A stretch of 64,000 nucleotides of DNA, taken from contig NZ_CP109132.1 in the NCBI RefSeq assembly GCF_035918015.1, forward strand, positions 5,394,001-5,458,000, written 5' to 3'. The stretch comes from Streptomyces sp. NBC_01754 (lineage in GTDB: Bacteria > Actinomycetota > Actinomycetes > Streptomycetales > Streptomycetaceae). This document shows, piece by piece, positions 3,147-23,531 of this stretch (the first letter of the stretch is position 1; each line of letters opens with the position of its first letter). A model generated the notes under the pieces. That model was not told the DNA's origin. It ran no database searches and saw only the letters and a program-made list of their open reading frames with translations. The position numbers and the translations under genes are program-made.

Positions 3147-3224
3147 GCCGTGGAATGGGGGGTGTGTCCACGGCCGCTCATGGGACCTGGCTCGGGTCGG
3201 AGGAGGTCGCATCCCCGACTATGA

Positions 3225-3400: not shown

Positions 3401-3427
3401 TGAGCCCGCACCTCGCCCCCGGCACGC

Positions 3428-3465: not shown

Positions 3466-3498
3466 GGTCGCTTCGGCGTCCGGTGAACGCGAGTGCCC

Positions 3499-4855
<1,357 letters not shown>

Positions 4856-4891
4856 CCGTCCCCCGTCGGCCTCCGGGCGGACGGGGGACGG
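4856..4891. terminator. 12-bp perfect hairpin after the GntR gene
   Basis: CCGTCCCCCGTC (4856-4867) and GACGGGGGACGG (4880-4891) form a perfect 12-bp stem with a 12-nt loop, 21 nt past the stop of the minus-strand GntR gene. Confidence 0.7.
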
Positions 4892-4911
4892 GCCGGGCGG
4901 GCGTGCGGGGT

Positions 4912-5298
4912 TCAGTCGGTCCCGGCTCCGTACACCGCCTCGAAAGACGTCTCGAACAACTCCTGGACCTCGGCGCTCCCGAGCCCTTCGGCCTTCGCCT
5001 GGTACAGCCACTCGTTCAGCGCCGAACGCAGCGGCCAGTCGGGGCCCGAGCCGGTCTGCGTCAGGGACCGGGTGATGAACGTGCCCGCCCCCTGCCGGAC
5101 CTCGGTCAGCCCCGCGCGTTCCAGTTCGCGGTACGCCTTGAGTGTGGTGTTCGGGTTGACCTTGGTGGTGGCGGCGACCTGCGCCGCCGTCGGCAGACGG
5201 TCGCCCTCCTGCAACGCGCCCATCCGAAGGGCCTGTTCGACCTGGCGCACGATCTGGAGGTATGTCGCCACTCCACTGCGCCGGTCGATGCGGAACAT
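4912..5298 (-). CDS. GntR-family regulator, YtrA-like short form
   Basis: A 128-aa winged-helix GntR regulator with only a short C-terminal tail after the DNA-binding domain, the YtrA subfamily layout. The DNA-binding part is MFRIDRRSGVATYLQIVRQ through QGAGTFITRS (residues 1-75), with the recognition-helix region VNPNTTLKAYRELERAGL. These regulators usually control an adjacent ABC transporter, which here is directly upstream on the same strand (ATPase 6324-7286, permease 5359-6327). I prefer the ATG at 5298 (AAGGTGAGG 9 nt upstream); an in-frame GTG at 5334 also exists. The regulator sits last in the transcription order, whereas in many YtrA operons it is first. Confidence 0.85.
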   Translation of the reverse strand: MFRIDRRSGVATYLQIVRQVEQALRMGALQEGDRLPTAAQVAATTKVNPNTTLKAYRELERAGLTEVRQGAGTFITRSLTQTGSGPDWPLRSALNEWLYQAKAEGLGSAEVQELFETSFEAVYGAGTD

Positions 5299-5358
5299 GA
5301 CCACCGGCCTCACCTTCCGCTCGGGTATCGACACTTTAGGCTGGAATGAGCGGTGTCC

Positions 5359-6327
5359 CTACAACGGCTGCCGGGACGACCGCCACACGACGAACACGGT
5401 GAGCGCGACCGTACCGGCCAGCAGGATGCCGGCGCCGGTCCACTGCATGGCCGCCATCTGCTCGTAGTCGAGGTACTCGATGACGTTGTCGACGATGCCC
5501 GTCTTCGCGAGACACGCGTCCAGTGCCTCGTCCGTCGCCTCGGCGCACGATCCCCACCCGTACAACGTCCCGTCGGCACTGGCGGCCCAGCGCTCCACCT
5601 CGTACGACTCGGAGAGCCGCGCGGGGAGTTCGGCGTCCAGCGGATAGGTGAACGTGCGCGTCGGGGCGAGATGCTCCCGGAGCAGGTCCCAGGCGGTCTC
5701 CACGACCACCGCGAAGACGAAGGTGACGACCATGGAGGCGAGCACCCGGCGCAGCAGGACACCGATGGTCACCCCGGCCGCGGTGAGGAAGAGCGCGAGC
5801 GCCGGCAGGACGGGGCCGGTGTTGTCGAACACCGTGGGTTCCAGCCAGGAGTACGAGAGGACGGAGCGGTAGGGCCTCCACCACCAGGTGAAGAGGGCGG
5901 AGAGCACCACGCACGAGACCAGGGCGGCCCCGAAGCACCAGCCGAGCTTCGTGACCAGCCAGCGGCGGCGCGTCACGGTCTGGGTGGTGACGAGTCGGGC
6001 CGTGCCCTGTTCGATGTCGGCGGCGATCAGCGGGGCGCCGAGGAAGACGGCGAGGATGACGGGGAGCGAGCCCAGCAGCATCGTCAGGTTCTCGTACTGC
6101 CGGCCGACGACCGGTTGGGGTACGTCCTTCTCGGGCCAGCCCGCCGCGTCGAGCAGATCGATCAGCTGGCCGCGCTGGTGGACGAGCCAGAGTGAGGCGA
6201 GCACGGTCAGGCCCAGCAGACAGAGCAGGATGGCCCGGTGCTGGCGCAGCACCAGCCAGTGCGCGCCGCGCGCCATCCGCCGGGGCGTGGTGCTTTCGGT
6301 GGGCGCGTCGGTCAGGGGAGTGCTCAT
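5359..6327 (-). CDS. ABC transporter permease subunit
   Basis: A 322-aa integral membrane protein with several strongly hydrophobic segments, for example AILLCLLGLTVLASLWLV near the N terminus, LLGSLPVILAVFLGAPLIAA, and a C-terminal ILLAGTVALTVFVVW. A soluble acidic stretch lies between the last two. It is the membrane partner of the ATPase encoded by the overlapping upstream gene. The ATG at 6325-6327 overlaps the ATPase stop as ATGA, so translation is coupled and this is the right start; the frame continues upstream without a site. With the YtrA-like GntR regulator 60 nt downstream, a role in export or cell-envelope stress is plausible, but the substrate is unknown. Confidence 0.85.
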   Translation of the reverse strand: MSTPLTDAPTESTTPRRMARGAHWLVLRQHRAILLCLLGLTVLASLWLVHQRGQLIDLLDAAGWPEKDVPQPVVGRQYENLTMLLGSLPVILAVFLGAPLIAADIEQGTARLVTTQTVTRRRWLVTKLGWCFGAALVSCVVLSALFTWWWRPYRSVLSYSWLEPTVFDNTGPVLPALALFLTAAGVTIGVLLRRVLASMVVTFVFAVVVETAWDLLREHLAPTRTFTYPLDAELPARLSESYEVERWAASADGTLYGWGSCAEATDEALDACLAKTGIVDNVIEYLDYEQMAAMQWTGAGILLAGTVALTVFVVWRSSRQPL

Positions 6328-7286
6328 GCGGTCCTGGCCTCCTCGGCCTCGATGCCGGCGCCGGGTGCGTACAGCGCGGGGGCGTCGGGTGAGCGGAGAT
6401 GGGCGAGCAGCACTTCCTCCAGGCTGGGCTCCGACACCTGCCATTCGCCGGACAGCGCTCCCCGGCGTCGTACCATCGCCTGGAACTGCCGTCCCTGGAT
6501 CCGGCTCTCGACCACCGTGTGGCGGGTGAGCGCGGAGGGCAGCGCCCCGTTCTCGGTGACCCCGGTCAGCAGGGCGTGCTCGGGGACCAGCGCGTCGGCG
6601 TCACCGGCCATCCGTACCCTGCCTTCGGCGACGACCAGCAGGTAGTCGCACATGTCCTCCAACTCGGTGAGCATGTGTGAGGACATCACCACCGTGGTGC
6701 CGCGCTCGGCGGCCTCCGCCATCAGCAGGGTGCTCATCTCTTCCCTGGCCAGAGGGTCGAGGTCGGACATCGGCTCGTCCAGGAGCAGCAGATCGGGCCG
6801 CTTGCCGAACGCGAGGGCGAAGGCGACCCGGGTCCGCTGACCGCCGGAGAGCGTGCCGATGGTGGCGTTCGCCGGCACCTTGCCCGCGCGCACGATGCGT
6901 TCCGCCGCGGCCATGTCCCAGCCCGGGTTGAGCTCGCTGCCCATCCGCAGCGTCTCGGCGACGGTGAACCGCTTGAACAGCGGCTTGTCCTGCCCCAGGA
7001 AGGCGAATCTCGGCATGACCCGCGGATCGCTCACCGGCACCCCGAAAAGGCGCAGTTCGCCCTCCGTGGGCTCCACCTGCCGGGTGGCCGTGCCCAGCAG
7101 GGTGCTCTTCCCCGCTCCGTTGGGCCCGACAAGGCCGCAGATCCTTCCGGCCGGCAGCCGGAAGGAACAGTCCCGCAGCGCCCAGCCGCGGCGATAGCGC
7201 TTGCCCAGGCCGCGGGCCTCGACGGCCCACGCGCCGCCGGACCCGGTCGACGTGCTCGTCTCTGCCACGCTTCCCCTCGATTCCAT
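6324..7286 (-). CDS. ABC transporter ATP-binding subunit
   Basis: A 320-aa ABC ATPase. Walker A is GPNGAGKS, the signature is LSGGQRTR, Walker B is LLLLDEPMSDLD, and the H-loop is SSHM. A C-terminal extension of about 90 residues follows. It energises the permease encoded by the overlapping gene. The ATG at 7286 has no Shine-Dalgarno and lies inside an inverted repeat, so the mRNA may be leaderless; a GTG seven codons in (7268) has AGGGGA just upstream and is the alternative start. First gene of the ATPase-permease-GntR operon. Confidence 0.88.
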   Translation of the reverse strand: MESRGSVAETSTSTGSGGAWAVEARGLGKRYRRGWALRDCSFRLPAGRICGLVGPNGAGKSTLLGTATRQVEPTEGELRLFGVPVSDPRVMPRFAFLGQDKPLFKRFTVAETLRMGSELNPGWDMAAAERIVRAGKVPANATIGTLSGGQRTRVAFALAFGKRPDLLLLDEPMSDLDPLAREEMSTLLMAEAAERGTTVVMSSHMLTELEDMCDYLLVVAEGRVRMAGDADALVPEHALLTGVTENGALPSALTRHTVVESRIQGRQFQAMVRRRGALSGEWQVSEPSLEEVLLAHLRSPDAPALYAPGAGIEAEEARTA

Positions 7287-7303
7287 GAGTCAATTAATGG
7301 AAT
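7280..7303. promoter_or_regulatory. Inverted repeat overlapping the ABC operon start
   Basis: ATTCCAT (7280-7286) and ATGGAAT (7297-7303) are perfect 7-bp inverted repeats with a 10-nt AT-rich spacer. The left half contains the start codon of the ABC ATPase gene. A -10-like CATTAAT lies in the spacer on the minus strand. This is a good candidate operator for the GntR regulator encoded at the end of the same operon. Confidence 0.5.
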
Positions 7304-7455
7304 GATGGTCAGTGGGGGCGGGGCCTGTCAAGCCACGTGTGGGGCCGGTGACTTCGGCGGGACGGGGACGTGGGGCCGGCTGCCCAAGGGGGACTTGGTG
7401 CCTCGCGGGCGCTCCGGATGTCCCGACGCCGCCGCCGGACCGTCGCACGGAACGG

Positions 7456-7497
7456 CGCGCGCCCGGCGGAAGCGGGATCGCTTCCGCCGGGCGCGCG
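7456..7497. terminator. 19-bp perfect hairpin terminator after the STAS gene
   Basis: The arms 7456-7474 and 7479-7497 are perfectly complementary over 19 bp with a 4-nt GGAT loop. The element lies 75 nt past the stop of the minus-strand STAS gene. It is one of the strongest hairpins in the window. Confidence 0.75.
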
Positions 7498-7572
7498 TGC
7501 CGTCGGGCGTAGCCGTCCGGGGGCCCCGGACGCCGTGCTGGGGCCGGGCGGGCCGAGCCGCCCGACGGGCCG

Positions 7573-7965
7573 TTACCCCTCTGGCCCCTCCCCGGACGGC
7601 GCGGACTCCGCCACGACCTGGGCGACGGCCTCGGCCACACCGGGGTGTACGGGCATGAGGTCGCCGACCCCCGTCATGTCCAGCAGCCTGGCGAGCTGGG
7701 CGGGCGGGCCGGCGAGGGACAGGGACCCGTCGTGTGCCCGCGCCTGATGCACTATCGCGATCAGCGCGTTGAGGCCGGAGGAGTCGCAGAACTCCACGGG
7801 TGCCATGTCGAGGATCACATGCGGACTGCCCTGTCCGATCAGGTCCAGCGCCTTGGTGCGCAGTGCGGGCGCGCTCTCCACGTCGAGTTCGCCGGTGACG
7901 GTGACGACCGCGAGGGAGTCTGCCGGGTGGCGAACGGTGAGAAGGAGAGGGGTGCTGTGAGTCAT
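7573..7965 (-). CDS. STAS-domain anti-sigma factor antagonist
   Basis: A 130-aa single STAS-domain protein of the SpoIIAA/RsbV/BldG type. In partner-switching circuits the unphosphorylated form binds an RsbW-like kinase and frees a sigma factor. The key segment is EFCDSSGLNALIAIV (about residues 57-71), where the DSSG serine pair is the phosphorylation site of the family; GELDVESAPALR is the first STAS strand-helix unit. The ATG at 7965 gives the standard length, with GGAG about 11 nt upstream. The SigB/SigF-type sigma factor lies 1.2 kb away on the other strand. Confidence 0.88.
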   Translation of the reverse strand: MTHSTPLLLTVRHPADSLAVVTVTGELDVESAPALRTKALDLIGQGSPHVILDMAPVEFCDSSGLNALIAIVHQARAHDGSLSLAGPPAQLARLLDMTGVGDLMPVHPGVAEAVAQVVAESAPSGEGPEG

Positions 7966-8141
7966 GTACGTCAGTGCTCCGGGCCGGGGCGGACGACTGC
8001 GGCCGATACACGGGGAGCGAGCCGGTGCGGTGCGACTGCCGGCGCCACCCGCAGGTGACACGCCGCTCCCAGACGCACCCTCCGGCCGATCCGATGGAGT
8101 GGCCGCCAGAAGATCGCACATCGAATCTGGACTGCGGAAGC

Positions 8142-8163
8142 GTACCCCACGGCAACTGTTGCC
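8142..8163. promoter_or_regulatory. 13-bp palindrome and GGGTAC box between STAS and MarR genes
   Basis: GGCAACTGTTGCC (8151-8163) is a perfect 13-bp palindrome in the 387-nt divergent spacer. On the minus strand GGGTAC (8147-8142) matches the -10 form used by SigB-type sigma factors, but no convincing -35 is seen at the right distance. It may be the operator of the MarR regulator, the STAS promoter, or both. Confidence 0.4.
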
Positions 8164-8352
8164 AAGGGAAAACGGCACCCCTGTCCGAATTGCGGACTCC
8201 CGGACCTGTGGTCGGCGGGGGTAGGATGCTCCGGGCGTACACGTGTGCCTCTGATGCGTGGATGTGTCCTGATCTTCCGTACGAACGCATCGGATGCCCG
8301 GCACGCTTGCTCGGTCCGGTGGCCGGACGGAGCCAGACAGACGAGTGAGACC

Positions 8353-8877
8353 ATGCCGGATCGGAGTGTCATCCAAATGGGCCTGAACCCCGAACCAGAC
8401 CACCGGTCCCGGGACGCGGCTCACGAGGGTTCCGAGGTCATCGAACTGCTCGAAGTCCTGTGGGAACAAGGGCGTGAAGCCGTGCCGACCGGTCCGGTGT
8501 CCCCCTCCCAGCTCCGCGTGCTGTACGCGCTGGACCGCGACGAGGGCATCAATCTGCGGATGCTCGCCGAGGCCCTCGGATCGGCCTCCCCCTCGGTCAG
8601 CAGGCTGTGCGACCGGCTACAGGCCACCGGTTTCGTGGAGCGGGCCCCCAGTCCGGTCAGCCGGCGGGAGCTGGAGCTGCGGCTGACCGGTCACGGCAAG
8701 GCGTACCTCGTCGACCTGCGGATGCGCAGGGAACAGGTCATCATGTCGACGATCGACGCCATGCCGCCCAAGGCCCGGCGCGCCCTGCTCGAAGGGCTCC
8801 GGGGCTTTCGTGCCGCGGCCGCGGCGGCCGTCCGGCAGGACGACGGGCCGGCCGGGCCCCTCAGATCGACCGGATAG
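8353..8877 (+). CDS. MarR-family transcriptional regulator
   Basis: A 174-aa winged-helix regulator. The HTH runs from SQLRVLYALDRDEGINLRMLAEALG to SVSRLCDRLQATGFVERAPSP (about residues 50-100), and the wing RRELELRLTGHG follows, as in MarR proteins. The C-terminal helix ends in an Ala-rich tail. I use the ATG at 8353; an ATG at 8377 is also possible, and neither has a strong ribosome binding site. It is divergent from the STAS gene and 290 nt before the SigB-type sigma factor. A perfect palindrome in the divergent spacer is a candidate operator. The ligand is unknown. Confidence 0.85.
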   Translation: MPDRSVIQMGLNPEPDHRSRDAAHEGSEVIELLEVLWEQGREAVPTGPVSPSQLRVLYALDRDEGINLRMLAEALGSASPSVSRLCDRLQATGFVERAPSPVSRRELELRLTGHGKAYLVDLRMRREQVIMSTIDAMPPKARRALLEGLRGFRAAAAAAVRQDDGPAGPLRSTG

Positions 8878-9167
8878 CGGCCCTGCCACTCACGCGGAGG
8901 CCGACGGCATCGAGGGGTGAGTGGTGCTGCGGCATCGCGCGACGCCCGCTCGACGGAACGCGGCACGCCCGAAAGGCCGCTCCGGTGGCTGGGGCTGTCA
9001 GGTGCGGTGAGCGACCGGCGAGGGCCGGCCACCTGAGCTCATTTTACGATGTACAGAGACAACAGTTTCCACACAGCAAGAAAAATCCCGCCCGATCGAG
9101 CATGCGCCCGGTGAAGTGGGGCAGGCGCCCTCTCAGGAAGCACGCATCACCAGGGAGGGTAGACAAT

Positions 9168-10058
9168 ATGTCATTGATCTCCGAACGGGCCGCCGAGAAC
9201 CCGGTGTTCAACGGTGTGTCGGCTCCGGACGGCGGGGCGGCGGCCATCGGCGAGCTGCCCTGGATCGAGGACGCCGCAAAGCTCGCACCCAAGGACGCCC
9301 GTGAGCTGTCGGCGCTCTTCTTCGCGCAGCTCCAGATGCTCGAGGAGGGCACGCACAAGCACCAGTACGCGCGCAACACCCTCATCGAGATGAACATCTC
9401 CCTGGTCCGGTTCGCCGCGCGCCGCTTCCGCAACCGTGGCAGTGGTGACATGGAGGACATCACCCAGGTCGGCATCGTCGGCCTCATCAAGGCGATCGAC
9501 CGGTTCGAGCTCTCCCGCGAGGTCGAGTTCGCCACCTTCGCCGTCCCCTACATCGTCGGGGAGATCAAACGTTTCTTCCGTGACACCACCTGGGCCGTCC
9601 ACGTCCCCCGCCGCCTTCAGGAACTACGCGTGGAGTTGGCCAAGGCCAAGGAGGAGCTCGCCGTACGCCTGGACCGTGACCCCACGGTGAAGGAACTGGC
9701 CGAGTTCCTGGACCTCACCGAGGACGAGGTCGTCGAAGGCATCGTCGCCTCCAACGGCTACACCGCGGGCTCGCTGGACCTGCCGACCGACGCCAACGAG
9801 GCATCGGCCACGGCGACCCGTACCTTCGCCGATCTCCTGGGTGAGCCGGACGCCGCCATGGAGACGGTCGAGAACCTGCACGCGCTGGCCCCGCTCCTCG
9901 AGGATCTCGAAGAGCGCGAACGGCGCATCATAGAAATGCGCTTCGGCCAGGAGATGACCCAGGCGAAGATCGGCGCCGAGCTGGGCATCTCCCAGATGCA
10001 CGTCTCCCGCCTCCTCAGCCGCACCCTCGGCAAGCTCCGCACCGGCATGTTCGCCTGA
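9168..10058 (+). CDS. RNA polymerase sigma factor, SigB/SigF subfamily
   Basis: A 296-aa group 3 sigma factor of the SigB/SigF/SigG type, directing transcription of stress or developmental genes. Region 2 is visible as NISLVRFAARRFRNRGSGDMEDITQVG and AIDRFELSREVEFATFAVPYIVGEIKRFFRD. Region 3 contains VPRRLQELRVELAKAKEEL. Region 4 ends in LEERERRIIEMRFGQEMTQ and the HTH IGAELGISQMHVSRLLSRTL. GGGAGG lies about 9 nt before the ATG at 9168. Members of this family are usually held by an RsbW-like anti-sigma kinase and freed by a STAS antagonist; candidates for both are encoded within 7 kb. Confidence 0.93.
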   Translation: MSLISERAAENPVFNGVSAPDGGAAAIGELPWIEDAAKLAPKDARELSALFFAQLQMLEEGTHKHQYARNTLIEMNISLVRFAARRFRNRGSGDMEDITQVGIVGLIKAIDRFELSREVEFATFAVPYIVGEIKRFFRDTTWAVHVPRRLQELRVELAKAKEELAVRLDRDPTVKELAEFLDLTEDEVVEGIVASNGYTAGSLDLPTDANEASATATRTFADLLGEPDAAMETVENLHALAPLLEDLEERERRIIEMRFGQEMTQAKIGAELGISQMHVSRLLSRTLGKLRTGMFA

Positions 10059-10210
10059 GTCGCGCCGCGCAGGCGTGGTCGTCGGCTGTGCCGTGCCGCT
10101 CCGGCCCGGGCGGTCGATGCCCGGCCCGCCCTCGCCCACTGCCCTTGACGCCCTGCTCGCCCCTGTAGATCTCTGTTCGCCCCCTGTACGCCCTGAGAAT
10201 GAGGACCGCC

Positions 10211-10507
10211 GTGCTGATGGCCAACCCCGTGATACTGCGTGGTCTCGTCGACCGCTACCACGAGCTGCTCACCCAGGACAGCGCGCAGGGATCTCCTGAG
10301 GCCCGGTGCCAACTGGAGGACGTCACCTACACGTTGTGCGTGTCCACCGGTACCCGCACGGCGGACGAGGCCCTGGCCGTGGCTGAGGAGCAGCTCACCG
10401 CGGCGCTCCGAGTCACGGCACCCCGCGGTGAGCGGCCGACGGCGCTCACCGCTGCGGGGCGGCCCGACCGGACCCCCTTCGAGCGTGGTTCGTGCGTCGG
10501 CCGGTAG
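10211..10507 (+). CDS. DUF5133 domain protein
   Basis: A 98-aa protein of the actinobacterial DUF5133 family, recognised from the N terminus MLMANPVILRGLVDRYHELL and the core LEDVTYTLCVSTGTRTADEAL. The function is unknown. The GTG at 10211 with GAGGA 5 nt upstream gives the family's usual MLMA start; an ATG at 10199 precedes the Shine-Dalgarno and is less likely. The last 25 residues are low-complexity. It is the last recognisable core gene before the accessory island. Confidence 0.75.
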   Translation: MLMANPVILRGLVDRYHELLTQDSAQGSPEARCQLEDVTYTLCVSTGTRTADEALAVAEEQLTAALRVTAPRGERPTALTAAGRPDRTPFERGSCVGR

Positions 10508-10610
10508 GCGCCCGCGCCCGAGTCCGTGCGGCTGAGCCGTTCGTGGCACTCGTCATCGCCTCCGCGTCCGGGCACCGCCGTACGGTCCGTGCCCGGCGAC
10601 GTCCGACGCG
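10508..10610. other. Left edge of the accessory island
   Basis: No gene is seen here. From about here to 18.6 kb the intact core-gene pattern breaks down into fragments, mobile-element genes and lower-GC cargo. No direct repeat or attachment site marking the precise edge was found by eye. Confidence 0.35.
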
Positions 10611-11009
10611 CTACCGACCGGCTTCGCTCCAACGAGCCGGGGCCACGAGCGGAATCCGAGAGCCTGGACCACCTTTGCCGGGCCTGCCCGGTGTCACCGC
10701 CACGGACCTCGCCCGGGGTTGCGGAATGACCTCCTGGCGACTTCGGGGAGCGTGGACCCAGCCGCGGCGCACGGCTTCCACGCCGCCCTGGAACCGGGTC
10801 TGGACGCCTAATTCTTCAAGCAGTTCAGCCACACGCCTGCTGAACGTGCGGGGAGATATGTTCAATCGCCTGCACGCCGTCACATCGGGAGCTCCTGCGA
10901 GTAGTTCATGGAGTACCGGAACAAGATGATCAGGAGGGAATTCGGCTCTCTGGTTCCCGCCATGGGTTCCTTTCGTTCTTCCGGTGCCGGCCCGGTCCGG
11001 AACGCTCAA
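10611..11009 (-). pseudogene. LuxR-type HTH fragment or minimal regulator
   Basis: The frame (132 residues, TTG start at 11009) contains a clear C-terminal HTH resembling those of LuxR/NarL regulators: LNISPRTFSRRVAELLEELG followed by VQTRFQGGVEAVRRGWV. Only about 40 residues precede it and no receiver or sensor domain is visible, so it looks like the end of a larger regulator that lost its N-terminal part. The 40 residues after the HTH are basic and low-complexity, suggesting that the original stop was lost. A short functional DNA-binding protein cannot be excluded. Confidence 0.5.
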
Positions 11010-11739
11010 CTTATGTACCCCCAGCAGTAACAGATCCGGTCATTCAGCATTCCACTCGCAAACGTCCGGCACTCCCGGAGCCGTCCGGTATCGGGATTGC
11101 CCGGAGGATGCGCGTGCACACCCGGTTCCGGGGCGACACGCGGGCAACCCGCTCCGCCTGCGAGGCCGCGTCCCCCACCGGCCCCGACCATGGCTCCTAC
11201 GCGAGGTGTGATACCCGCGCCGGACGTCCGGTCCGCGACGGATGCCCCTCGCGGCCGTCGTCCGTGACGTTCGACGTCGCGGCCGCCGGCTGATCAGGAC
11301 GCCTGGCCGCACCGCTCAGGCATGTGAGTGCACCTGACGGCCGGTGGCCGGGCGGCAGGCGCACGACGGTGTTTCCGCGAGGTGCTTGCCCCGGCACCGA
11401 CAAGCCTGTCCCGATGATCGTGCTTCCGCCACCGTCATCTTGGTGCACTGCATGAAAGTGAGGGGATCAATGCGGGCGAAGCAGGCAAGGGGCGCCGCAC
11501 TGGCGAATCGCCGGAAAGCAGCGGGAACGTAAATCGCCGAAGCCCGTCCACGTGCATGAAGTAAAGGGCCGGCCCGGCGCTCGGAAGTACGGGCCACAGC
11601 ACGTCGGCCGGTGCGGCGGTGCGGATATCGGTGCGTGTCGACGGACCACAGGCCGACGTCGAGACAACCGGGTCGACGTGCGAGGTGTTTCCGACGGCGC
11701 GTCCGCGGAGGCGCCGGATGATCCGGCGGAATCCGAGCG
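11010..11739. other. Degenerate intergenic DNA of the accessory island
   Basis: About 730 nt with no frame I can assign to a family on either strand. Base composition is less biased than in core genes and short frames have no codon-position GC pattern. It is probably decayed gene or insertion-sequence material. Confidence 0.4.
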
Positions 11740-11856
11740 CGACAGGAGTCGGCCCCGAATGACGTGAAGAGTCTCACGGCGATCGTGGACCGGGTGACCT
11801 TCGACGTGCACATCGTCGAGACCGGCGCCGACAGCTTCCGCTTCAAAAGACCCAGG
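11740..11856 (+). pseudogene. Probable IS21-family istB remnant (C-terminal tail)
   Basis: A short in-frame stretch reads KSLTAIVDRVTFDVHIVETG followed by ADSFRFKRP. As I recall the family, IS21 helper ATPases (IstB) end in this way: a final helix with IxDR, then a strand with HIxETGxxSxR. No Walker motifs or istA gene are present, so this would be the last ~30 residues of a deleted element. The assignment is from memory of the family only. Confidence 0.45.
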
Positions 11857-11984
11857 AGGAGCACCGCAAGTCAGGGTGCCGATGAGTGTCTGGCACGAAC
11901 CGAAGACTCCGGCTCCGGCTCCAGGGGTGGATCCATTCTCGGGGTGCCGGTAAGAACGCTGTCACCAGCCGCAAACGAGGGGCT

Positions 11985-13052
11985 TCACGTCCGGCGACGT
12001 GCGGCGGGGTCGCGTTCGGCGACGTGTCGGGCGACTGCGTCGACGCTGGGGCGGGCGTACCGCTCCAGGGACCTGACGGAGGCGTGGCGGGAGCGGGCCA
12101 GCAGCATGGGGGTGGAGGTGCCGCCCTCCGCGTCGTGTGTCAGGGCGCTGTGGCGTAGCCGGTGCAGCGTGAAGCCGTTTAGGTCCTCGATGTCCTCGGG
12201 TGAGGCGAGCGGGTTGGCCAGCAGTCGGGTGTTCTCCTCGAAGATTTCCTCGGCCCGGCGGTAGGAGAGCCGGGCCCGGCCGGTCTCGGGGCACACGTCG
12301 AGTGTCGGCGTCCCGGCCGGGGCCTTGCGGTCGGTGAGGAACAGTGGGCCGCGGGTGCGGCGGGCGATGAGGCGAGGCAGGAGCTGGGCGGTGCCGGACT
12401 GCCAGTGAATCCACTCCGTCGCCCCGCCCTTGGCGGTGATCCTGCCGCGCTTGTCCTGCGGGTACAGGTCTTCCACGTTCAGGCACAGCACCTCATCGGC
12501 CCGTGCGGCACTTTCGTAGAGAAGCTTCCAGTACGTCTTCTCCCTGAGCCCGACGTCCAGGCGCCACAGGGCGGCGATCTGGTTCTCGGCCAGGGCCTTG
12601 GTGCGGTCCTGTGGCGCCGGCCGCCGCTCGATGCCGATCGTCGGATCGCAGGTGATCCAGCCCTGGCGCTGCCACCAGCCCATCGCCTTGCGCGCGATGG
12701 ACAGCTCCCGGTTGACGGTGTCGGCGTCCATCTCGTCCGCCCGGGCCGCCGCCAGCTCGGCGAGCACCTCGGGCAGTGCCGGGTCGTCGATCGCGGCGAC
12801 GGGGAAGACGGGCGGCTTGGCGCCCCGGCGGGCCGGACCGGTCGGCGCCGCCTCGCCGGCGAACATCCATCCCCATGTCGTCAGCGAGATCCGGTAGACC
12901 CTGGCGGAGGACTTCGCGATTCCGGCGCCGGTGAGGTACCGCTCGACCGCCGCAGTGTACGACGAGGGAGGGGCGGTCAGGGGTACGACCCGGGCGCGCG
13001 GCACACGCAGCGCGCTCCCGCTTCCGAGTTCGGTCACCAGTCCGATCGCCAT
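11985..13052 (-). CDS. Tyrosine site-specific recombinase (possible TnpI-like)
   Basis: A 355-aa phage-integrase-family recombinase. The N-terminal core-binding (SAM-like) domain covers about residues 30-125. The catalytic domain has the full set: Arg in YESAARADEVL, a Lys in ITAKGG, HRLRH (His-x-x-Arg), His in SRHASV, and the nucleophile Tyr in LERYARPS near the C terminus. It therefore looks intact. The ATG at 13052 has GGAG 5 nt upstream. A cluster of three 14-bp repeats lies 22-132 nt upstream, as expected for a recombination site adjoining its own gene. With the Tn3-type transposase remnant 2 kb away it may be the resolvase of a Tn4430-like transposon; an integrase of another element is the alternative. 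Confidence 0.88.
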   Translation of the reverse strand: MAIGLVTELGSGSALRVPRARVVPLTAPPSSYTAAVERYLTGAGIAKSSARVYRISLTTWGWMFAGEAAPTGPARRGAKPPVFPVAAIDDPALPEVLAELAAARADEMDADTVNRELSIARKAMGWWQRQGWITCDPTIGIERRPAPQDRTKALAENQIAALWRLDVGLREKTYWKLLYESAARADEVLCLNVEDLYPQDKRGRITAKGGATEWIHWQSGTAQLLPRLIARRTRGPLFLTDRKAPAGTPTLDVCPETGRARLSYRRAEEIFEENTRLLANPLASPEDIEDLNGFTLHRLRHSALTHDAEGGTSTPMLLARSRHASVRSLERYARPSVDAVARHVAERDPAARRRT

Positions 13053-13073
13053 GCCTGCTCCGCTCTTCCGGTC

Positions 13074-13184
13074 CTGCCGCAGTAAATGCGTACACCTCGT
13101 CCCGGCGGCCAGATCACCCCGCCGCAGGTCGCGGAGATCACCGTAGAGGCTCTGCCGCAGTAAATCCGGTATTTACTGGGGCAG
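13074..13184. repeat. Repeat array upstream of the recombinase: candidate recombination site
   Basis: CTGCCGCAGTAAAT occurs at 13074-13087 and again at 13152-13165. A third copy, inverted and with one mismatch, is at 13171-13184. The last two face each other across 5 nt (CCGGT), giving an inverted core, while the first is a direct copy 78 nt away. A partial CCGCAG match is at 13122-13127. An inverted core plus upstream direct copies of the same motif, next to a tyrosine recombinase gene, is the plan of the Tn4430 internal resolution site. Confidence 0.6.
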
Positions 13185-13291
13185 TTGCGTTGCCCGCTGC
13201 TCGGCGTGGTCTCAACGAATCCGCACCCCGCCCTGACTCCCTGTGAGAAAAGCGGTTGCACTGGCTGTCTTCTCGCAGACAGGGTGCGGTG

Positions 13292-14200
13292 GTGACCGGA
13301 ACAGAGATCGAACTCCCCGTCGTGGATGGGGTCCTATCCGGTGTGGACTTCGGCGGTCACGGTGACGGCGTGCTGCTCGTCCATGGCAGCGGACACAACG
13401 CTGCGGCCTGGATGGATGTGGCGTCCCATCTGGTGAGCGAGTGCCATCCCATTGCCCTCGACCTGCGTGGCCATGGGCAGACCTGGCTCGACTCCACCGG
13501 CCCCGAGCAGTACTGGCGAGACATCGGTAGCGTCGTCACCGCGCTGGCCTGGGACCGCCCCGTGCTGGTGGGCCATTCCACCGGCGGGTACGCGGTGACG
13601 GCCGCCACTGCCAGTGGACTTGTGGAACCAGCCGCCCTTTGCATCGTGGACGGCGTGGTGCTCGATGACCGTAACGCGTCACTCGCCGAGCATGCTGACG
13701 TGCGGACCACCGAGGCGGCGGACCGTTTGCGGGCGATGTTCCGCTACGGCTGGAAAGCCGACCACGACCAGATGCATGCCTATGTCGAGCAGTGCGTGCA
13801 GGAGGCCGGAGGGGACTGGCTCAACGCCGGAGCACGGCCCGGACTTGTCGAGGAGGTTACGCGGCGCTCCTTCCTACGCCGCGGCCGCTGGTGGGTACGG
13901 CGGCCGACCATCGAGGAGGTTGCGACTGTCACTGCCGTGGAGCCCGATGCAGAGGTCTTCCCAGCCGTCGATCTATACGACCGCCTCACCTGTCCGATGA
14001 CGATCGTGCTGGCCGAGGATGGCTTCTACGCCTCACGGCGCGACGAGGTGCGTGCCGTCGTCGATGCCATCCCTGGCCGCCAGCTGATCGACATCAGCTC
14101 GAACCACAACGTCCCCATGACCCGGCCCGCTGACCTCGCCGCGATCATCCTTGACCTGGTGCGAGACCGAGCTGCCACATCGGCCAGGAACGTCGATTGA
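13292..14200 (+). CDS. Alpha/beta hydrolase, cargo gene next to vgb
   Basis: A 302-aa alpha/beta-fold hydrolase with an apparently complete triad: nucleophile Ser96 in VGHSTGGY, an acidic residue in LAEDGFY, and His in SSNHNVPM. The oxyanion segment LLVHGSGHNAAAW (about residues 28-40) is present. The GTG at 13292 has AGGG 7 nt upstream. It is followed after 32 nt by a virginiamycin B lyase gene and probably shares its transcript. A/T at third codon positions is more frequent than in core genes, suggesting transfer. The substrate is unknown; an ester or lactone of the same antibiotic class is an inference from context only. Confidence 0.85.
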   Translation: MTGTEIELPVVDGVLSGVDFGGHGDGVLLVHGSGHNAAAWMDVASHLVSECHPIALDLRGHGQTWLDSTGPEQYWRDIGSVVTALAWDRPVLVGHSTGGYAVTAATASGLVEPAALCIVDGVVLDDRNASLAEHADVRTTEAADRLRAMFRYGWKADHDQMHAYVEQCVQEAGGDWLNAGARPGLVEEVTRRSFLRRGRWWVRRPTIEEVATVTAVEPDAEVFPAVDLYDRLTCPMTIVLAEDGFYASRRDEVRAVVDAIPGRQLIDISSNHNVPMTRPADLAAIILDLVRDRAATSARNVD

Positions 14201-14232
14201 TCCCCACCCCACCACCCCTACAAGGAGTTGCT

Positions 14233-15126
14233 GTGCACCACTCTGATGCCCCGGCCACCAGGGAGATCTCCGTGGCAGACAAGGAGGCTGGGCCTTACGG
14301 CATCGCAGCCGGACCTGACGGTGCGCTGTGGCTCACCCTCGCCCACAGTGGCCGCATCGCGCGTCTCACCCTCGACGGCGAACTCACCGAATACCCCCTG
14401 GACTCGTCCGAGTGCCGCCCTACGGTCATTACCCCTGGGCCCGACGGAGCACTGTGGTTCACACGGTCCCAGGACCACCGGATCGGCCGCGTCACCGCCG
14501 ACGGCGAAACGGAATCCTTCCCCGTACCGACGCCCGACAGCGGACCCTTCGGTATCACGGCCGGTCCAGACGGTGCGATGTGGTTCACGGAGATGAACAC
14601 CGACCGTATCGGCCGCATCACCTGCAAGGGAGAGATCACCGAATTCGTCCTTCCCCATACGGGCGCCTATCCCTCGGCAATCACCGCAGGCCCTGATGGG
14701 GCCCTGTGGTTCACCCTCAACCAGGCGAATGCAATCGGCCGCATCACTGTCCACGGGGACATCGTCATGCACCCACTCCCCACCGCCAGCGCCGCACCCG
14801 TGGGCATCACCAGTGACGGCGCCGCCCTGTGGTTCGTTGAGATCGCAGCGGGCCAGATCGGCAGGATCTCGGTGGATGGCGCGATCAAGGAGTTCCCGCT
14901 CCCTGACCGCACGGCCAAACCCCACGCCATCGTCGCGGCCTCCACCGGGGACTGCTGGTTCACCGAATGGAGAGCCAACCGCATTGGCCACATTACCGAT
15001 AGCGGCGAGATCGCCGAGTACAGCCTGCCGTCACCGTCGTCCGAGCCGCACGGCATCACCATGGGCTCCGATGGCGCTCTGTGGGTGGCGCTTGAGACGG
15101 GAGGTGTCGCGCGGTTGGAACCGTAG
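14233..15126 (+). CDS. vgb: Virginiamycin B lyase (streptogramin B lyase)
   Basis: A 297-aa seven-bladed beta-propeller enzyme that opens the ring of type B streptogramins by an elimination at the ester bond, giving resistance without hydrolysis. The blade repeat GPDGALWFT recurs about every 42 residues (for example at AAGPDGALWLT and TAGPDGALWFT). The C-terminal part holds the histidines of AKPHAIV and SEPHGITMG and the Glu of VALETG, which correspond to the catalytic His/Glu cluster as I remember it for Vgb. The length matches characterised Vgb proteins (about 295-300 aa). The GTG at 14233 has AAGGAG 5 nt upstream. It sits in a mobile island with lower GC than the core genes. Confidence 0.9.
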   Translation: MHHSDAPATREISVADKEAGPYGIAAGPDGALWLTLAHSGRIARLTLDGELTEYPLDSSECRPTVITPGPDGALWFTRSQDHRIGRVTADGETESFPVPTPDSGPFGITAGPDGAMWFTEMNTDRIGRITCKGEITEFVLPHTGAYPSAITAGPDGALWFTLNQANAIGRITVHGDIVMHPLPTASAAPVGITSDGAALWFVEIAAGQIGRISVDGAIKEFPLPDRTAKPHAIVAASTGDCWFTEWRANRIGHITDSGEIAEYSLPSPSSEPHGITMGSDGALWVALETGGVARLEP

Positions 15127-15171
15127 CTCGGGACGGAGAACCGCTCAGGTCAGCCATGTGCCGGTGTCGCG

Positions 15172-17965
15172 TCACACCAGCCGCCGGCGCGGCCCGATCG
15201 CCGTGCTATACCCGCAAAGGTTCATGCTTTCTCCGGTGGAGCGTACGGCCTTACCATCTGTGGCCCGAGGGCTGGGAACGGTCGCCGCGGTGAGGTTGAG
15301 ACGGGTGTCCATGTCGAGGTTCACCTCACCGTAGGGCCGGACGTGCGACCAGAACAGCGGGGTCAGGCCGCGCCGGTCGGCGGGCGTGAGGAGGTCCGCC
15401 CACTCTGGCTCGCCGAGGACGTCCTGGAGCATCAGGGTGTTCACGTACACCAGGGCCTATTGCAGAATCCGCAGGCACAGCACGAACATCTCCTGCTCGT
15501 CGCGCCGGTTGAGGCGATCTCCCCGCCCTTGCCGTAGGCGATCACGGAGTTCGCGCCGTTGGAGGACTCCATCACGTTCAGGCCCTCCTCGATCTCCCGC
15601 TGGAGGTCCTGAAGCCGCAGTAGCGGGCCACGAAAATCGTCTTCTGGGCACGGCCGACCTCCAGCATCGCCGCGTAGGTGGGGTGGGAGGCATTGCGGGT
15701 GAAGCGGCGCAGGATTGCCTCGGTGGACGCGGTGCGGGTCCGGATCGCGGTGGCGTACTTGATCATCTGGTCGTACTGCTGGGCGATGAGTTCCCAGCGG
15801 ATCGGCCGAGTCAGCGCCGGGGTGAGCTGCGGGTAGGCGTCCGGTTCGCCGGCCACCGGCCGGTACAGCTTCACCTTGTTGATCCGCTTGATGCGCGGCA
15901 GCAGGTCGAAGTTCAGCAATCTTGTAATGCCGAACCCGATCTCCGACTGGCCGTGCGAGTCCGTGTAGTTGGCTTCGACGTCCATCGTGGTGCCGTGCCG
16001 CATGGCGCCCTCGATCATCGCGGCGACCTCCGAGGCGGTGCAGTTGATCAGCTGCGAGTGGATGGCCAGCGACTTCTTCTCCACGTGCCAGTAGATGAGC
16101 ACCCTGCGGCCGCCGTAGCGCGAGTGCCACTCGGTGAACAGGTTCTGGTCGTAGGCCCGCACGTGCGTGGAATCGGAGGCGACCGCGGTCGATCCCTGTC
16201 CCCACAGGTCGGTGCTGCGGTGCTGCGGGCGGCGAAGGTGGCGTTCGCTATGTTCACGGCGATGGCGCGGGCAGCCTCCGCCGAGAGGTAGCGGCGCCGC
16301 ACGTAGCGCAGTTCGTCCTCGGTGTGGCCGTGGCCGCCGGACGCGACGGCCTTGATCCCGGTGTTCGTGCCGTAGGCGTAGATCACCAGGAGCAGCCGCT
16401 CGGCCAGGACCTCCGCCGAGAGGCTGCCGCCCCCGGAGACGGAGGTGACCGCATCGAGGCAGCCGGTGCGCAGCACCGCTTCCTTGAGCATGTCGATGAG
16501 CGGCACGACGCCCCACCGGCGCTGTACCTCGTTCTTGATCCGGCGCAGGTTGCGCGGCTCGGGCTGGGCCTCGGCCGGGGTGAGCCGGATCGCCCCGGAC
16601 TTCCGCTCGGCGATGTCCAGCCAGGACAGCTTGGGCATCCGGTCGTTCAGCAGGCCCAGTTCGGTGGTCATCTGCTCGCGCAGTTCGTCGACGAAGACCT
16701 GCGGGTCCAGTGGCTTGCGCAGTTCGCGGTAGTTCTCCTTGCGCCGCTCGGCGAAGTCCTGGGGAAGGTCCTCGTCCGGGTTGCGCCACTTGTCGGCGCC
16801 GACGACCCAGATCTCCTTGCACTTGAGCTGGTCGCGCAGGGCTTGGAAGGCGACGACCTCGTAGACCATGCGCACCACCCGGCGCCGGCCGCGCTTGTCG
16901 GTGCGGTGGACGACCTCCGCCCGGTCCCCGCCCATCGCCTTGTGCGCCGGCACCGTCTCGCCCAGCGGGTAGTACGTGGTGTTGCCCGCCGCCGCGTACC
17001 GGGCCACCAGCGCCAGGGCCTCGATCACCGGCCGGTGCGTGTGGTTGGACGAACGGAACTCCAGCACGTCCAGCAGTTTGATCAGCCCGCGCCGGTAGTG
17101 GTTGGTGTAGGACGCCTTCAACGTGGTCTGCACCGTGCGTCGGTAGACCGGGCCGCGGGTCTTGAACTCGTGCACCAGCTCTCGCAGCGTCTGTTCACCG
17201 CCCGACACGGCCGGGTAGACGACCTCGCGTACCGTGCCCTCCGGCTCGCCGATCGACGCCTCGGCGAGCTTGAAGAGGATGTTCTCCTTGCCTGACACCT
17301 TCTTGAACGCGTTGACCAGCTGCTCGGTGACCTTCTTCTCCGCCCGTGCACCGATCCGGTGAACCGTGGAGATCAGCAGCTCCACCAGCGTGTCCGTGAT
17401 CTCCCGCTCCCGCTCGTGCAGCAGCGCGGCCAGCAGCGTCACCCGCAACGGCAGCGGGTGCGTGCGCAGATGGGAGGGCGACTCCACCGCGGCCCGCGCC
17501 CGCCATACGGCCACCACCTTCGGCGCGACGTCCGTGAACAGATCCGGCGGAAGCCCGATCGCGCGGACCGCGAGCAGTTTGTCGATCTCGGTGAGCATCG
17601 TCTCCAGGCTGACGTTGCCGGGCGCTTCCTTGATCTTCCCCAGGACCGGCGGTCCGTCCTCGCCCTCGCCAGTCCCGTCGTCACCGGGTTCGGCGTCGTC
17701 CTGCTGATCGCCGCCGGCGACCAAGGCGACGATCCGCTCAATGCTCTCTGCCGTGATCCGTGCCGAGATCCGCGCCGTCAGCGTCGCCTCGGCGACCCGC
17801 AGCGCGGCTCCCACGATCCGGTCGCACCGCCCGGGGGTGGGCGGCTCGATGCACTCCGTACGACAACGGGCCAGCAGCTCCACCCGCACCTGCTCCGGCC
17901 GCCGCTCCTTGCAGGCGACGTGCTCGGCGAGCCAGGCCGCCAGCTTGTCCGCGCGCTGGCGGAGG
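15172..17965 (-). pseudogene. Tn3-family transposase (tnpA), inactivated and 5'-truncated
   Basis: Homology to Tn3-family DDE transposases runs from RADKLAAWLAEHVACKERRP (near 17955) to [18 protein letters not shown] (near 15292). Three frameshifts and a stop interrupt it. An 8-bp tandem duplication of GGTGCTGC lies at 16211-16226. A base is missing near 15621 (between FVARY and RLQDLQREIEEGL). Another is missing near 15512 (between GGEIAS and NRRDEQEMFVLCLRIL). An in-frame TAG is at 15457-15459, before [19 protein letters not shown]. The 5' part, including the N-terminal domain, is missing, and the break abuts the DUF6624 fragment. The catalytic region STAVASDST is still readable. The element cannot transpose by itself. 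Confidence 0.9.
16211..16226. repeat. 8-bp tandem duplication causing the first tnpA frameshift
   Basis: GGTGCTGC is repeated twice without spacer (16211-16218, 16219-16226). Removing one copy rejoins the frames FAARST and DLWGQGSTAVASDS, so this is a simple slippage event that broke tnpA. Confidence 0.85.
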
Positions 17966-18464
17966 AACTCACAGCCATGGCCGCGGCCGATCACCGGTCC
18001 TCGGTGCACGCGAACAGCGACGACCCCGCTGAGCAACTCGCGTGGAGCCGGCTGACCGCACGGCACGGTGACCGACTCGGCGAGATCATGGACGAGTACG
18101 GCTGGCCGACGGCGGAAGACGTCGGCAACGAGGCCGCACGCGCGGCATGGCTGATCGCTCAGCACGCCGACCGGCAGCTCGACGTCCAGCGACGCGCTCT
18201 CCACCTGGTGCGGCAGGCGGTGTCGGCACGCTCGGCCGGCCACGTGATCTGGCCTTTCTGCGCGACCGTACGCTGACCAACGAGGGCCGCAGGCAGATCT
18301 ACCTTTGATCTTGGCCGGTGCTCCGGTGTTCACGCCGGGGGTGTAGGCCATGGCACTCAGATCGCCGGCGTGAATGACGGGCACCGGTCCCGTGGCCCTG
18401 CGAAGAGCCCGAACGCATGGACCAGCTCCGCGCGGAAGTCGGCATCGAGCCCTTCGACGAGTAG
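17950..18464 (+). pseudogene. DUF6624 gene remnant, frameshifted and interrupted
   Basis: Pieces of a DUF6624 protein are readable in order: LAEELTAMAAADH, DEYGWPTAEDVGNEAARAAW with LIAQHADRQLDVQRRAL, then in another frame RDLAFLRDRTLTNEGRRQIY, then GTQIAGVNDG, then APVPWPCEEPERMDQL to EVGIEPFDE and a TAG at 18462. The first shift is near 18240. A 49-nt insert (18303-18351) separates QIY from GTQ and introduces a stop. A last base is missing near 18380. The 5' end abuts the truncated end of tnpA. The function of the family is unknown to me. Confidence 0.75.
18303..18351. repeat. 49-nt insert in the DUF6624 remnant, partly an inverted copy
   Basis: The insert's reverse strand carries GGCGTGAACACCGGAGCACC, which resembles the plus-strand segment just downstream starting at GGCGTGAATGACGG (about 18365). 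On translation the reverse strand gives PGVNTGAP beside AGVNDGAP of the gene. A template-switch (quasi-palindrome) event or a scrap of a related gene would explain it. Confidence 0.5.
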
Positions 18465-18630
18465 TTCGCGATGGCCTGACACCTGTTCTCGACGGCGTCA
18501 GGCGTCCCACCGCCGCGGCCCGGCGCCGTTTGCGGCCGCCGACGCGACTCATACCGGCGCCCCAGCCGTTGACCCGGCCCGCGGAGATTCCACGTCCAGT
18601 GAGACGGTCCTTCCCGTCAGGTGGGCAGAG
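18465..18630. other. Right edge of the accessory island
   Basis: No gene is seen. The sequence between the DUF6624 remnant and the sdaA terminator has no recognisable coding frame; a weak inverted repeat around GCCTGAC/GTCAGGC (18475-18508) is the only structure. Confidence 0.35.
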
Positions 18631-18682: not shown

Positions 18683-20068
18683 CTAGCACTCGATGATGTT
18701 CACCGCGAGCCCGCCCCGCGCCGTCTCCTTGTACTTCACGCTCATGTCCGCCCCGGTCTCCTTCATGGTCTTGATGACCTTGTCGAGGGAGACCTTGTGG
18801 CTGCCGTCGCCCCGCAGCGCCATCCTCGCCGCCGTGACCGCCTTCACCGCCGCCATACCGTTGCGCTCGATGCACGGGATCTGCACGAGACCGCCCACCG
18901 GGTCGCAGGTCAGGCCCAGGTTGTGCTCCATGCCGATCTCGGCGGCGTTCTCCACCTGCTCCGGGGAGCCGCCCAGGACCTCCGCCAGGGCGCCCGCGGC
19001 CATCGAGCAGGCCGAGCCGACCTCGCCCTGGCAGCCGACCTCGGCGCCCGAGATGGAGGCGTTCTCCTTGAAGAGCATGCCGATCGCGCCGGCGGCCAGC
19101 AGGAAGCGGACCACGCTGTCTTCCTTCTCGGCGTCGGTGCAGCCGCCCGCCGCGAAGTTCATGTAGTAGTGCAGGACGGCCGGGATGATGCCCGCCGCGC
19201 CGTTGGTCGGGGCCGTCACCACCCGGCCGCCCGCGGCGTTCTCCTCGTTGACCGCCATCGCGTAGAGGGTGATCCACTCCATGGCGTGGGCCTGGGGGTC
19301 GCCCTCTGCGCGCAGCTGGCGGGCCGAGTTCGCGGCGCGGCGGCGGACCTTCAGGCCGCCGGGGAGGATGCCCTCGCGGGTCATGCCGCCGGCGACGCAC
19401 ACCTGCATGACCCGCCAGATCTCCAGGAGGCCCGCGCGGATCTCGTCCTCGGTGCGCCATGCCTTCTCGTTCTCCAGCATGAGCGAGGAGATGGACAGGC
19501 CGGTCTCACCGGCGAGCCGCAGCAGCTCGTCGCCGGTGCGGAAGGGGTGCTTGAGGACGGTGTCGTCCGGGACGATCGGGTTCTCGCCGGCGACCGCGTC
19601 CTCGTCGACGACGAAGCCGCCGCCGACCGAGTAGTACGTCTTCTCCAGGAGCGGGGCCCCGTCGCGGTCGTGGGCGAGGACCGTCATCCCGTTCGCGTGG
19701 TACGGGAGCGCCTCGCGGCGGTGCAGGACCAGCTGCTCGTCGGCGTCGAAGGGGATCTCGTGCATGCCCAGCAGACTGATGCGGCCCGAGGAGCGGATCT
19801 CCTCGACGCGTGCGTCGGCGCCCTCGACGTCGACCGTACGGGGCGACTCGCCCTCCAGGCCGAGCAGGACCGCCTTGGGGGTGCCGTGGCCGTGACCGGT
19901 GGCGCCGAGCGAGCCGTACAGCTCCACCCGTATCGAGGCGGTGTGGGCGAGCAGACCCTCGTTCTTGAGCCGGCGGGCGAACATGCGCGCCGCGCGCATC
20001 GGGCCGACGGTGTGGGAGCTGGACGGGCCGATGCCGACCGAGAAGAGGTCGAAGACCGAGAGGGCCAC
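18683..20068 (-). CDS. sdaA: L-serine ammonia-lyase (iron-sulfur type)
   Basis: A 461-aa single-chain serine deaminase converting L-serine to pyruvate and ammonia with a 4Fe-4S cluster. The N-terminal beta domain begins [20 protein letters not shown], a family hallmark. The alpha domain holds the cysteine motifs [19 protein letters not shown] and [16 protein letters not shown] that bind the cluster, and the chain ends in the conserved Cys of NIIEC. The GTG at 20068 has TTAGGAG 6 nt upstream. It follows glyA on the same strand, but a hairpin at 20155-20194 separates them, so it may be only partly co-transcribed with the glycine operon. Confidence 0.96.
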
Positions 20069-20154
20069 GGGGAACTCCTAAGGGGTTGGTAGACGCCGTT
20101 GTCTGCCGGGTGGTGCGGGCGGGCCGTCGGGCCCGCAGAGCGCGGGGCAGCGAC

Positions 20155-23162: not shown

Positions 23163-23349
23163 CTGTCATCGGAACCTGAGAGGTTCGCCGGGAGCCCCTG
23201 AACGGGGTCGGCTTGCACCTTGGGTGGAGCCGCGAAACGGCCCGCTTTTCAGATCTGCCTCATCCGCGCGGTACGGGGCCTGAGAGATTCAAGGGAGGAG
23301 CTTGCTCCTTCGGCGTCCAGGTCACAGATGACCGGGACTCTCCCGCGCG
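23163..23349 (-). ncRNA. Tandem glycine riboswitch of the gcvT operon
   Basis: Reading the minus strand, the first aptamer (about 23349-23270) shows the hallmark start GGGAGAGTCCCGGTCATC, the internal GCCGAAGGAGCAAG and the closing AATCTCTCAGGC. After a short linker the second aptamer (about 23255-23163) shows CCAAGGTGCAAGCCGA, GGCGAACCTCTCAGG and closes before gcvT. Two aptamers in tandem allow glycine sensing. By analogy with known gcvT riboswitches, glycine binding should turn expression on. No clear U-tract terminator is visible, so control of translation or factor-dependent termination is likely. Confidence 0.92.
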
Positions 23350-23531
23350 GATTCGAACGGCCGGTATGCAATTGGCGGGGCCATCATCGCACGCATCACG
23401 GGAGAGTGGGGCCGGGGTACCCGACCGGAGTCCGGGCCGGCGTGCACGAGCGGAAGCGGGCGCATCGCATTACCTTTTCTTTACACTTCTCGGGCAGGTC
23501 AGGTGCGGGTGACGAAGCAGGGGGGACGGCG

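Follow-up and report, generated by a model that had tools for sequence, protein, structure and literature searches.

A decayed Tn3-family transposon with vgb cargo in Streptomyces, and a presumed tyrosine-recombinase resolution module common to several transposase lineages

We analysed a 64,000-nucleotide stretch, here called the window (G000:C1:5394001-5458000), of the 7.77-Mb genome of Streptomyces sp. NBC_01754. Positions are those of the window, marked w where it is compared with other DNA, and L numbers denote fetched loci. Positions 11941-17953 are most of a decayed Tn3-family transposon of Streptomyces, whose terminal repeats we call type A. It holds an intact tyrosine recombinase gene with a putative recombination site, two cargo genes (an alpha/beta hydrolase gene and vgb) and the remnant of a tnpA (Table 1). 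The recombinase and its site are a module, presumably for resolution, common to at least four Tn3 transposase lineages. The comparisons drew on 77 loci with close recombinase relatives and on searches of 295 genomes of the same genus. The element had been placed at 11985-17965 in the original prediction, a reading of the window alone; the extent is corrected here to 11941-17953, with a diverged repeat lying further out.

Table 1. Features of the transposon and its right-hand neighbourhood in the window.
Feature	Position	Strand	Basis or remark
38-bp terminal inverted repeat, type A, intact end	11941-11978	+	0-3 mismatches to the repeats of L003, L016, L037, L047 and L055
Tyrosine recombinase, presumed resolvase, 355 aa, intact	11985-13052	-	PF00589, conserved catalytic residues, relatives
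Accessory single 14-bp motif	13074-13087	+	78 bp from the core
Putative core recombination site, two inverted 14-bp motifs with a 5-bp spacer	13152-13184		Sequence pattern
Alpha/beta hydrolase, cargo	13292-14200	+	PF12697; dN/dS
vgb, virginiamycin B lyase family, cargo	14233-15126	+	PF24684; structure 2z2n
tnpA remnant (Tn3 transposase)	15172-17953	-	Pieces in several frames, 5' end gone
DUF6624 gene remnant	17952-18469	+	Begins where the tnpA homology ends
Diverged type-A-like terminal repeat	18526-18563	-	27 of 38 positions, inverted relative to the repeat at 11941

The recombinase open reading frame (ORF) matched PF00589 (E 2.5e-10). Its residues R184, K208, H297, R300, H323 and Y332, which we take to be the catalytic ones, are present and conserved in the alignment. 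A single-sequence search of the PDB gave no match at E 0.001, and the family profile found XerD (1a0p, E 2.3e-8). Full-length relatives are at most 93% identical. The dN/dS values of 0.13-0.21 against ten intact relatives mostly reflect the history before the element settled at its present locus. Upstream of the gene lies the motif CTGCCGCAGTAAAT, and the core consists of an inverted pair of the same 14-bp motif. One accessory copy was found at 13074 and no second one, a degenerate copy not having been sought by other means. In a scan of 80 sources, core and accessory copy occurred at about this spacing in 51, which also had enough flank to be used below. The core pattern (≤2 mismatches) was present in 43 of the 295 genomes and its reversed control in none. 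Thirty site loci from the genus search included 20 with a recombinase match; the other ten retain at least the core and some also recombinase-side sequence. The recombinase presumably acts at the core and resolves cointegrates. In an intact element, cointegrates would arise when TnpA transposes the element replicatively by its 38-bp ends; strand exchange at the core, carried out by the recombinase, would then resolve them, and the lone motif at 13074 would serve as an accessory binding site. The cargo, hydrolase and vgb, sits between the core and tnpA. In L016, L040 and L079, as seen by eye, the core stands beside the recombinase start where the accessory motif would be, and the 78 bp between core and motif are gone, possibly through deletion by the recombinase.

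Terminal repeats were scanned in the window and 79 loci, allowing ≤12 mismatches. Both type-A ends were present in L003, L016, L037, L047 and L055. Target-site duplications (TSDs) flank three of these five relatives (L055 GGCTT, L047 GTGAC, L037 AAGCC), and the flanks of L003 and L016 are not identical. L055 (1008 aa) and L003 (1012 aa) have an open tnpA; the gene is interrupted in L037 and L047 and mostly deleted in L016. L055 combines open tnpA and recombinase genes with both ends and a TSD; L047 lacks the start of the recombinase. In the 77-locus comparison, the blocks conserved with relatives of the same subtype start at w11937-11942, and in most loci the conserved blocks stop near the outer edge of the site, at w13176-13188. 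Further blocks covering tnpA run up to w17952-17953, co-linear in L003, L037, L047 and L055 and partial in L004, L016, L022 and L066. Co-linear relatives thus share ends, recombinase and tnpA, which bears out the proposal that the tyrosine recombinase, the inverted-repeat site and the vgb cargo all belong to one Tn3-family element.

The tnpA pieces of the window are 84-95% identical, in several frames, to the open TnpA of L055. Compared with the open relative, the gene lacks its first ∼85-90 codons, and its last third is interrupted by frame breaks and a stop codon. The L055 protein has the DDE_Tnp_Tn3 (PF01526) and DUF4158 (PF13700) domains, and it is through the likeness of the pieces to this protein that the element falls within the Tn3 family as defined by a TnpA with DDE_Tnp_Tn3. 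In the relatives the second end lies ∼441 bp past the point matching w17953, so that the end in the window was expected near 18394. It is absent there, and a DUF6624 gene remnant runs from w17952 instead; its Pfam match falls below the curated cut-off. Copies of DUF6624 elsewhere in the genus begin at w17952 and are 77-81% identical in the seven loci compared. Together with the mismatched flanks (TTCTC versus AGCCG), the remnant at the tnpA break indicates that the element has lost one end, and without that terminal repeat and the 5' end of tnpA it is unable to move by itself. The search for 38-bp terminal repeats suggested in the original prediction therefore yielded one intact repeat, at 11941, and a second only as the 27/38 repeat of Table 1.

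The repeats at 11941 and 18563 might still be the true ends of one old element, one side having diverged and DUF6624 being extra cargo. The outer repeat has the right orientation, and besides near-identical ends (0-3 mismatches) the scan gave only two A'-type ends behind recombinases, in L008 and L076. This explanation is improbable to us: the spacing in relatives predicts a position some way inside the repeat, the left end is identical and the genes are ∼90% conserved while the repeat is only 71% alike, no target duplication is present, and DUF6624 homology begins at the very base where tnpA ends. The outer repeat probably comes from another, related element.

About 54 bp of the DUF6624 remnant (18298-18352) match short places in about a dozen genomes of the genus; the alignments of several DUF6624 relatives break at this stretch and do not include it. 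It looks like a small dispersed repeat. The same genome contains two more Tn3 tnpA relatives (G000:C1:2468660-2471612 and 5244104-5245225), with pieces 38-53% identical to type-A TnpA that are frame-broken or carry a stop codon, plus two short scraps.

The two cargo genes were examined for integrity. The hydrolase ORF is open from 13256 to 14200 (PF12697, E 1.3e-17), its GTG start at 13292 having been picked by eye. Over almost the whole gene dN/dS was 0.25-0.38 against seven relatives; in the alignment L160 and L163 each show a 1-bp gap, and L166 and L167 a stop codon that may be the terminal one. The vgb ORF is open from 14197 to 15126 (PF24684, E 3.9e-146), and the GTG start at 14233, preceded by AAGGAG, was likewise chosen by eye. 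The product matched the VgbA structure 2z2n (E 8e-89), and Y18, H228, E268 and H270 of VgbA, presumably the catalytic residues, are matched in the window protein in the alignment to that structure. VgbA and VgbB belong to the same family (PF24684); the window protein scored 289 and 298 bits with their NCBIfam models, below the cut-off of 600 bits in both cases, and is thus neither a VgbA nor a VgbB allele. It has the profile match and residue pattern of the virginiamycin B lyase family and, judged from the family, would linearise streptogramin B.

The cargo query 13190-15140 (hydrolase and vgb) was searched in the 295 genomes at E 1e-30. Matches were found in 101 of them, its own genome included, mostly across vgb alone, and 12 match regions were compared (L160-L171). 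L160 lacks tnpA and keeps the end, site and cargo along with a broken recombinase; in L161 site and cargo are accompanied by a broken tnpA, and no recombinase was detected. In L163 the similarity runs from w12995 onward with site and cargo, and there was no protein-level match to recombinase or tnpA. L165 retains fragments of recombinase, cargo and tnpA, and L164, L166 and L167 have cargo without recombinase or tnpA. The cargo of L162 is at a contig start, so that its site side is unreadable. The vgb gene was found in L168, L169 and L171 (in L169 with a hydrolase-side scrap) and part of the hydrolase gene in L170. Around these other vgb copies recombinase and tnpA are often broken or missing. 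The vgb gene has no frame break or in-frame stop in nine of nine relatives (dN/dS 0.17-0.26) and looks maintained. The idea that selection keeps cargo and resolvase alike therefore stood for vgb alone; the recombinase is broken in L160 and undetected in L161. L160 is also the case of recombinase and vgb without tnpA that had been named as a refutation of the single element; since its end is of the same type as that of the window, the lack of tnpA there reads as decay. Other type-A relatives carry different cargo: an ABC transporter pair (L055), an ATP-grasp protein (L003) and a beta-eliminating lyase (L047).

Besides type A, ends of types B, B', C and D were found around the same recombinase. 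One to two transposases of each type were tested, and all carry the Tn3 DDE domain; TnpA identity is 26-59% between A, B/B', C and D, and 82-83% between B and B'. The recombinase genes of nine representatives show 88-94% nucleotide identity in all 36 pairs, within and between types. Elements of types A and B have the order end, tnpA, cargo, site, recombinase, end, and those of types C and D the order end, site, recombinase, cargo, tnpA, end. A mechanical count over the 77 loci, all lineages together, gave 23 end pairs bracketing the recombinase, and 15 of these have identical 5-bp flanks (A 3/5, B 6/9, B' 2/3, C 2/4, D 2/2), in further agreement with a single element. The count takes in the outer type-C pair of L027, in which the recombinase is part of a type-B element lying further in, and also a B' pair of L045 that is weak; it missed a B pair in L050 (flank TACTT) seen by eye. 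L027 is itself a nested case (5758-17055): its type-C transposon (TSD CAGTA) contains, near its end, one of type B (TSD TACAC).

These pairs also bear on the possibility that the recombinase is an integrase and the site its attachment site, both having inserted next to a separate Tn3 remnant, so that the window would hold two unrelated elements. Recombinase relatives (44% identical over the alignment, 49% over the matched part) do occur on plasmids of Rhodococcus and Amycolatopsis, and in both plasmid regions no tnpA is annotated within ∼6 kb in a gene table that is incomplete. The position of the recombinase inside matching Tn3 ends, the target duplications in most pairs and the recurrence of one gene order in types A and B make this account very improbable.

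The distribution of end types on the recombinase tree points to repeated exchange. The tree has 56 rows, 13 of them unlabelled. On the other 43 rows the end type must change 15 times along the tree, and types C and D show no clustering beyond shuffles. Several loci have mixed ends: in L008, L013, L045, L067 and L070 a C end on the site side is combined with a B' or A' end behind the recombinase, the B' ends having 1-7 mismatches and the A' motif itself being derived from L008. In L025 a C end lies within a B' pair.

The junction between the combined halves was then sought at the core. Across the 51 usable loci mean pairwise identity is ∼0.9 in the core. Over the first 12 bases outside it on the cargo side, which were unselected, it is 0.27-0.35, which is background from the first base. 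A similarity search sorted the cargo sides into 25 groups (14, 8, 6 and 2 members and 21 singles), somewhat an overcount of independent joins because the window and L163, which have the same cargo, were split. The outer arms of the core differ less within than between the three large cargo-side families (28 loci; none of 2000 shuffles as strong), and the inner arms have no such within-family likeness (1655 of 2000 shuffles). In Mantel tests on 44 loci the outer arm was correlated with the cargo side (r 0.27, p 0.0002) and not with the recombinase gene (r -0.04, p 0.66). The simplest reading of this pattern is a crossover between the two core arms, as a tyrosine recombinase would make. Recombination between the cores of different elements has probably swapped the halves that flank the core, and the recombinase itself may have caused the exchanges.

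Several results weigh against this account of the element and its module. The window element has neither an intact second end nor a 5-bp target duplication, and 8 of the 23 end pairs in relatives are also without one. Part of the high core identity is built in, as the core was the criterion by which the 51 loci were chosen. For the inner arm no significant correlation appeared, either with the recombinase gene (r 0.11, p 0.14) or with the neighbouring 78 bp (r -0.13, p 0.92), so the linkage expected between inner arm and recombinase does not emerge from the results; this arm has few variable positions. The recombinase gene was weakly correlated with the cargo side (r 0.17, p 0.002), as some elements were simply co-inherited. 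On the recombinase tree the labels A, B and B' cluster more strongly than in nearly all of 500 shuffles; taken with the 15 label changes, exchange appears to have been repeated but not free. Homologous recombination within the recombinase gene may also explain part of the sharing.

In its full form this last explanation holds that homologous recombination or gene conversion in the recombinase gene carried the recombinase from one Tn3 lineage to another, the sharp edge of the core being merely where selection on the site meets freely changing cargo. It would account for the scattered labels on the tree, for the weak support of 23 of 53 inner branches, which is what recombination inside the gene would produce, and for the inner arm that is not significantly linked to the recombinase gene. 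Insertions and deletions in the cargo should, however, leave a few ancestral bases by the core in some of the loci, and the mean over the 51 loci already lies close to background at the first outer base; moreover, outer and inner arms, 5 bp apart, differ in their relation to cargo family. We consider this alternative unlikely, though of appreciable weight. The explanation that we favour, with good confidence as a whole, is that of a decayed type-A element whose module is shared by at least four lineages and of transposon halves exchanged at the core.

The surroundings of the element were compared in relatives, as the original prediction had advised for the locus without the element. Fourteen relatives share the right flank, beginning between w18625 and w18685, and 6 of these share parts of w1-3234, but no empty site could be read in any of the 14 regions. 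Between w3234 and w18625 they have almost no counterpart (two short stray matches), and the region appears variable beside a conserved gene at 18685-20072. A glycine riboswitch (RF00504) lies at 23259-23355 on the minus strand; it probably belongs to a glycine-cleavage operon of which this conserved gene would be the last. The G+C content is 0.66 over 13-16 kb (cargo and 3' end of tnpA), 0.72 in the recombinase kilobase and 0.70 in the remaining tnpA. The lower-GC island described earlier thus holds for the cargo and the tnpA 3' end only, and it is weak, since comparable dips occur at 9-10 and 26-28 kb of the window.

The nearest characterised relative is Tn4556, as judged from its published description and from an element in L040. 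Tn4556 from S. fradiae is an active Streptomyces Tn3-family transposon with a PF00589 resolvase and a palindromic putative res site (PMC6403206). As there described, it resembles the window element in its 38-bp ends, 5-bp duplications, PF00589 resolvase, palindromic site and cargo between resolvase and transposase. The cargo itself is unlike that of the window, and by description the putative res lies between the resolvase and the near end (PMC6403206). Type A has its recombinase directly beside the end and its site on the cargo side. Types C and D share the Tn4556 order, with the site between resolvase and terminal repeat. The L040 element is called Tn4556-like from its layout and a 30/34 match to the published tnpA primer, and its resolvase is 35% identical to the window recombinase. 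It spans 969-12882 with ends 36/38 alike and flanks GTCTT (by eye), and its tnpA is split by a B' transposon with an AGGTT duplication. The printed primer was also tried as a way to Tn4556 itself: one of the 295 genomes matched within 3 mismatches, in a stretch with partial Tn3 transposase similarity only. That stretch contained neither a core site nor anything matching the window recombinase, and the L040 copy was used instead.

The element had been called Tn4430-like. The TnpI elements Tn4430, Tn5401 and TnBth4 are described in PMC7157771, the main text of which does not contain the words Streptomyces and Actinobacteria. By published description the Bacillus elements Tn4430 and Tn5401 resemble the window element in having a tyrosine resolvase, an inverted-repeat core and a direct-repeat accessory motif, and the comparison is apt as to presumed mechanism. 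It fails for gene order and for the number of accessory repeats: in Tn4430, tnpI and tnpA are co-linear with the site upstream of tnpI and without cargo separating the genes (PMC7157771), whereas the window recombinase is on the strand of tnpA but beyond its 3' end, with cargo and site between, and there are two accessory repeats (DR1 and DR2) in Tn4430/Tn5401 versus the one found here. A presumed 38-bp Tn4430 end matched 7 plasmid records; in the five stretches read nothing was annotated or recognised as TnpI, and this comparison was dropped.

A TnpI-type Tn3 element with vgb in Streptomyces had been thought new. Since Tn4556 has a PF00589 resolvase, the tyrosine-resolvase plan is not new for this genus, and Tn4556 was the only relevant such element from Streptomyces in the literature searched, which did not cover most subscription papers. 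The vgb part of the claim stands within that literature, where we found no report of vgb on a Tn3 element in Streptomyces, nor of one module shared by four lineages with junctions at the core. The exchange of halves suggests a parallel to transposon exchange at the res sites of serine resolvases, as described for TnTsp1 and Tn5501.12, in which halves of different Tn3 transposons are likewise joined at the recombination core (PMC7157771). Compared with those published cases, the resolvase here is a tyrosine recombinase, and our sample has more junctions and more transposase lineages.

The window element itself is an ordinary decayed transposon with resistance-type cargo. What merits testing is the pattern across the family, in which one tyrosine module is held in common and exchange takes place at its core: very different Streptomyces Tn3 transposases use practically one resolution module, and the junction lies at the recombination core. 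We suggest, tentatively and without thinking it the likelier outcome, that a single tyrosine recombinase with its core is a common docking point for Streptomyces Tn3 elements, not only resolving cointegrates but, through recombination between cores, continually re-pairing transposase ends, cargo and module, in a shuffling of transposons loosely comparable to integron cassette exchange. If the family-level pattern is confirmed, the module would offer a compact in vitro system for exchange by tyrosine resolvases, and its sharing would help explain how cargo such as the ABC transporter pair, the ATP-grasp enzyme and vgb moves between transposon backbones in an antibiotic-rich genus.

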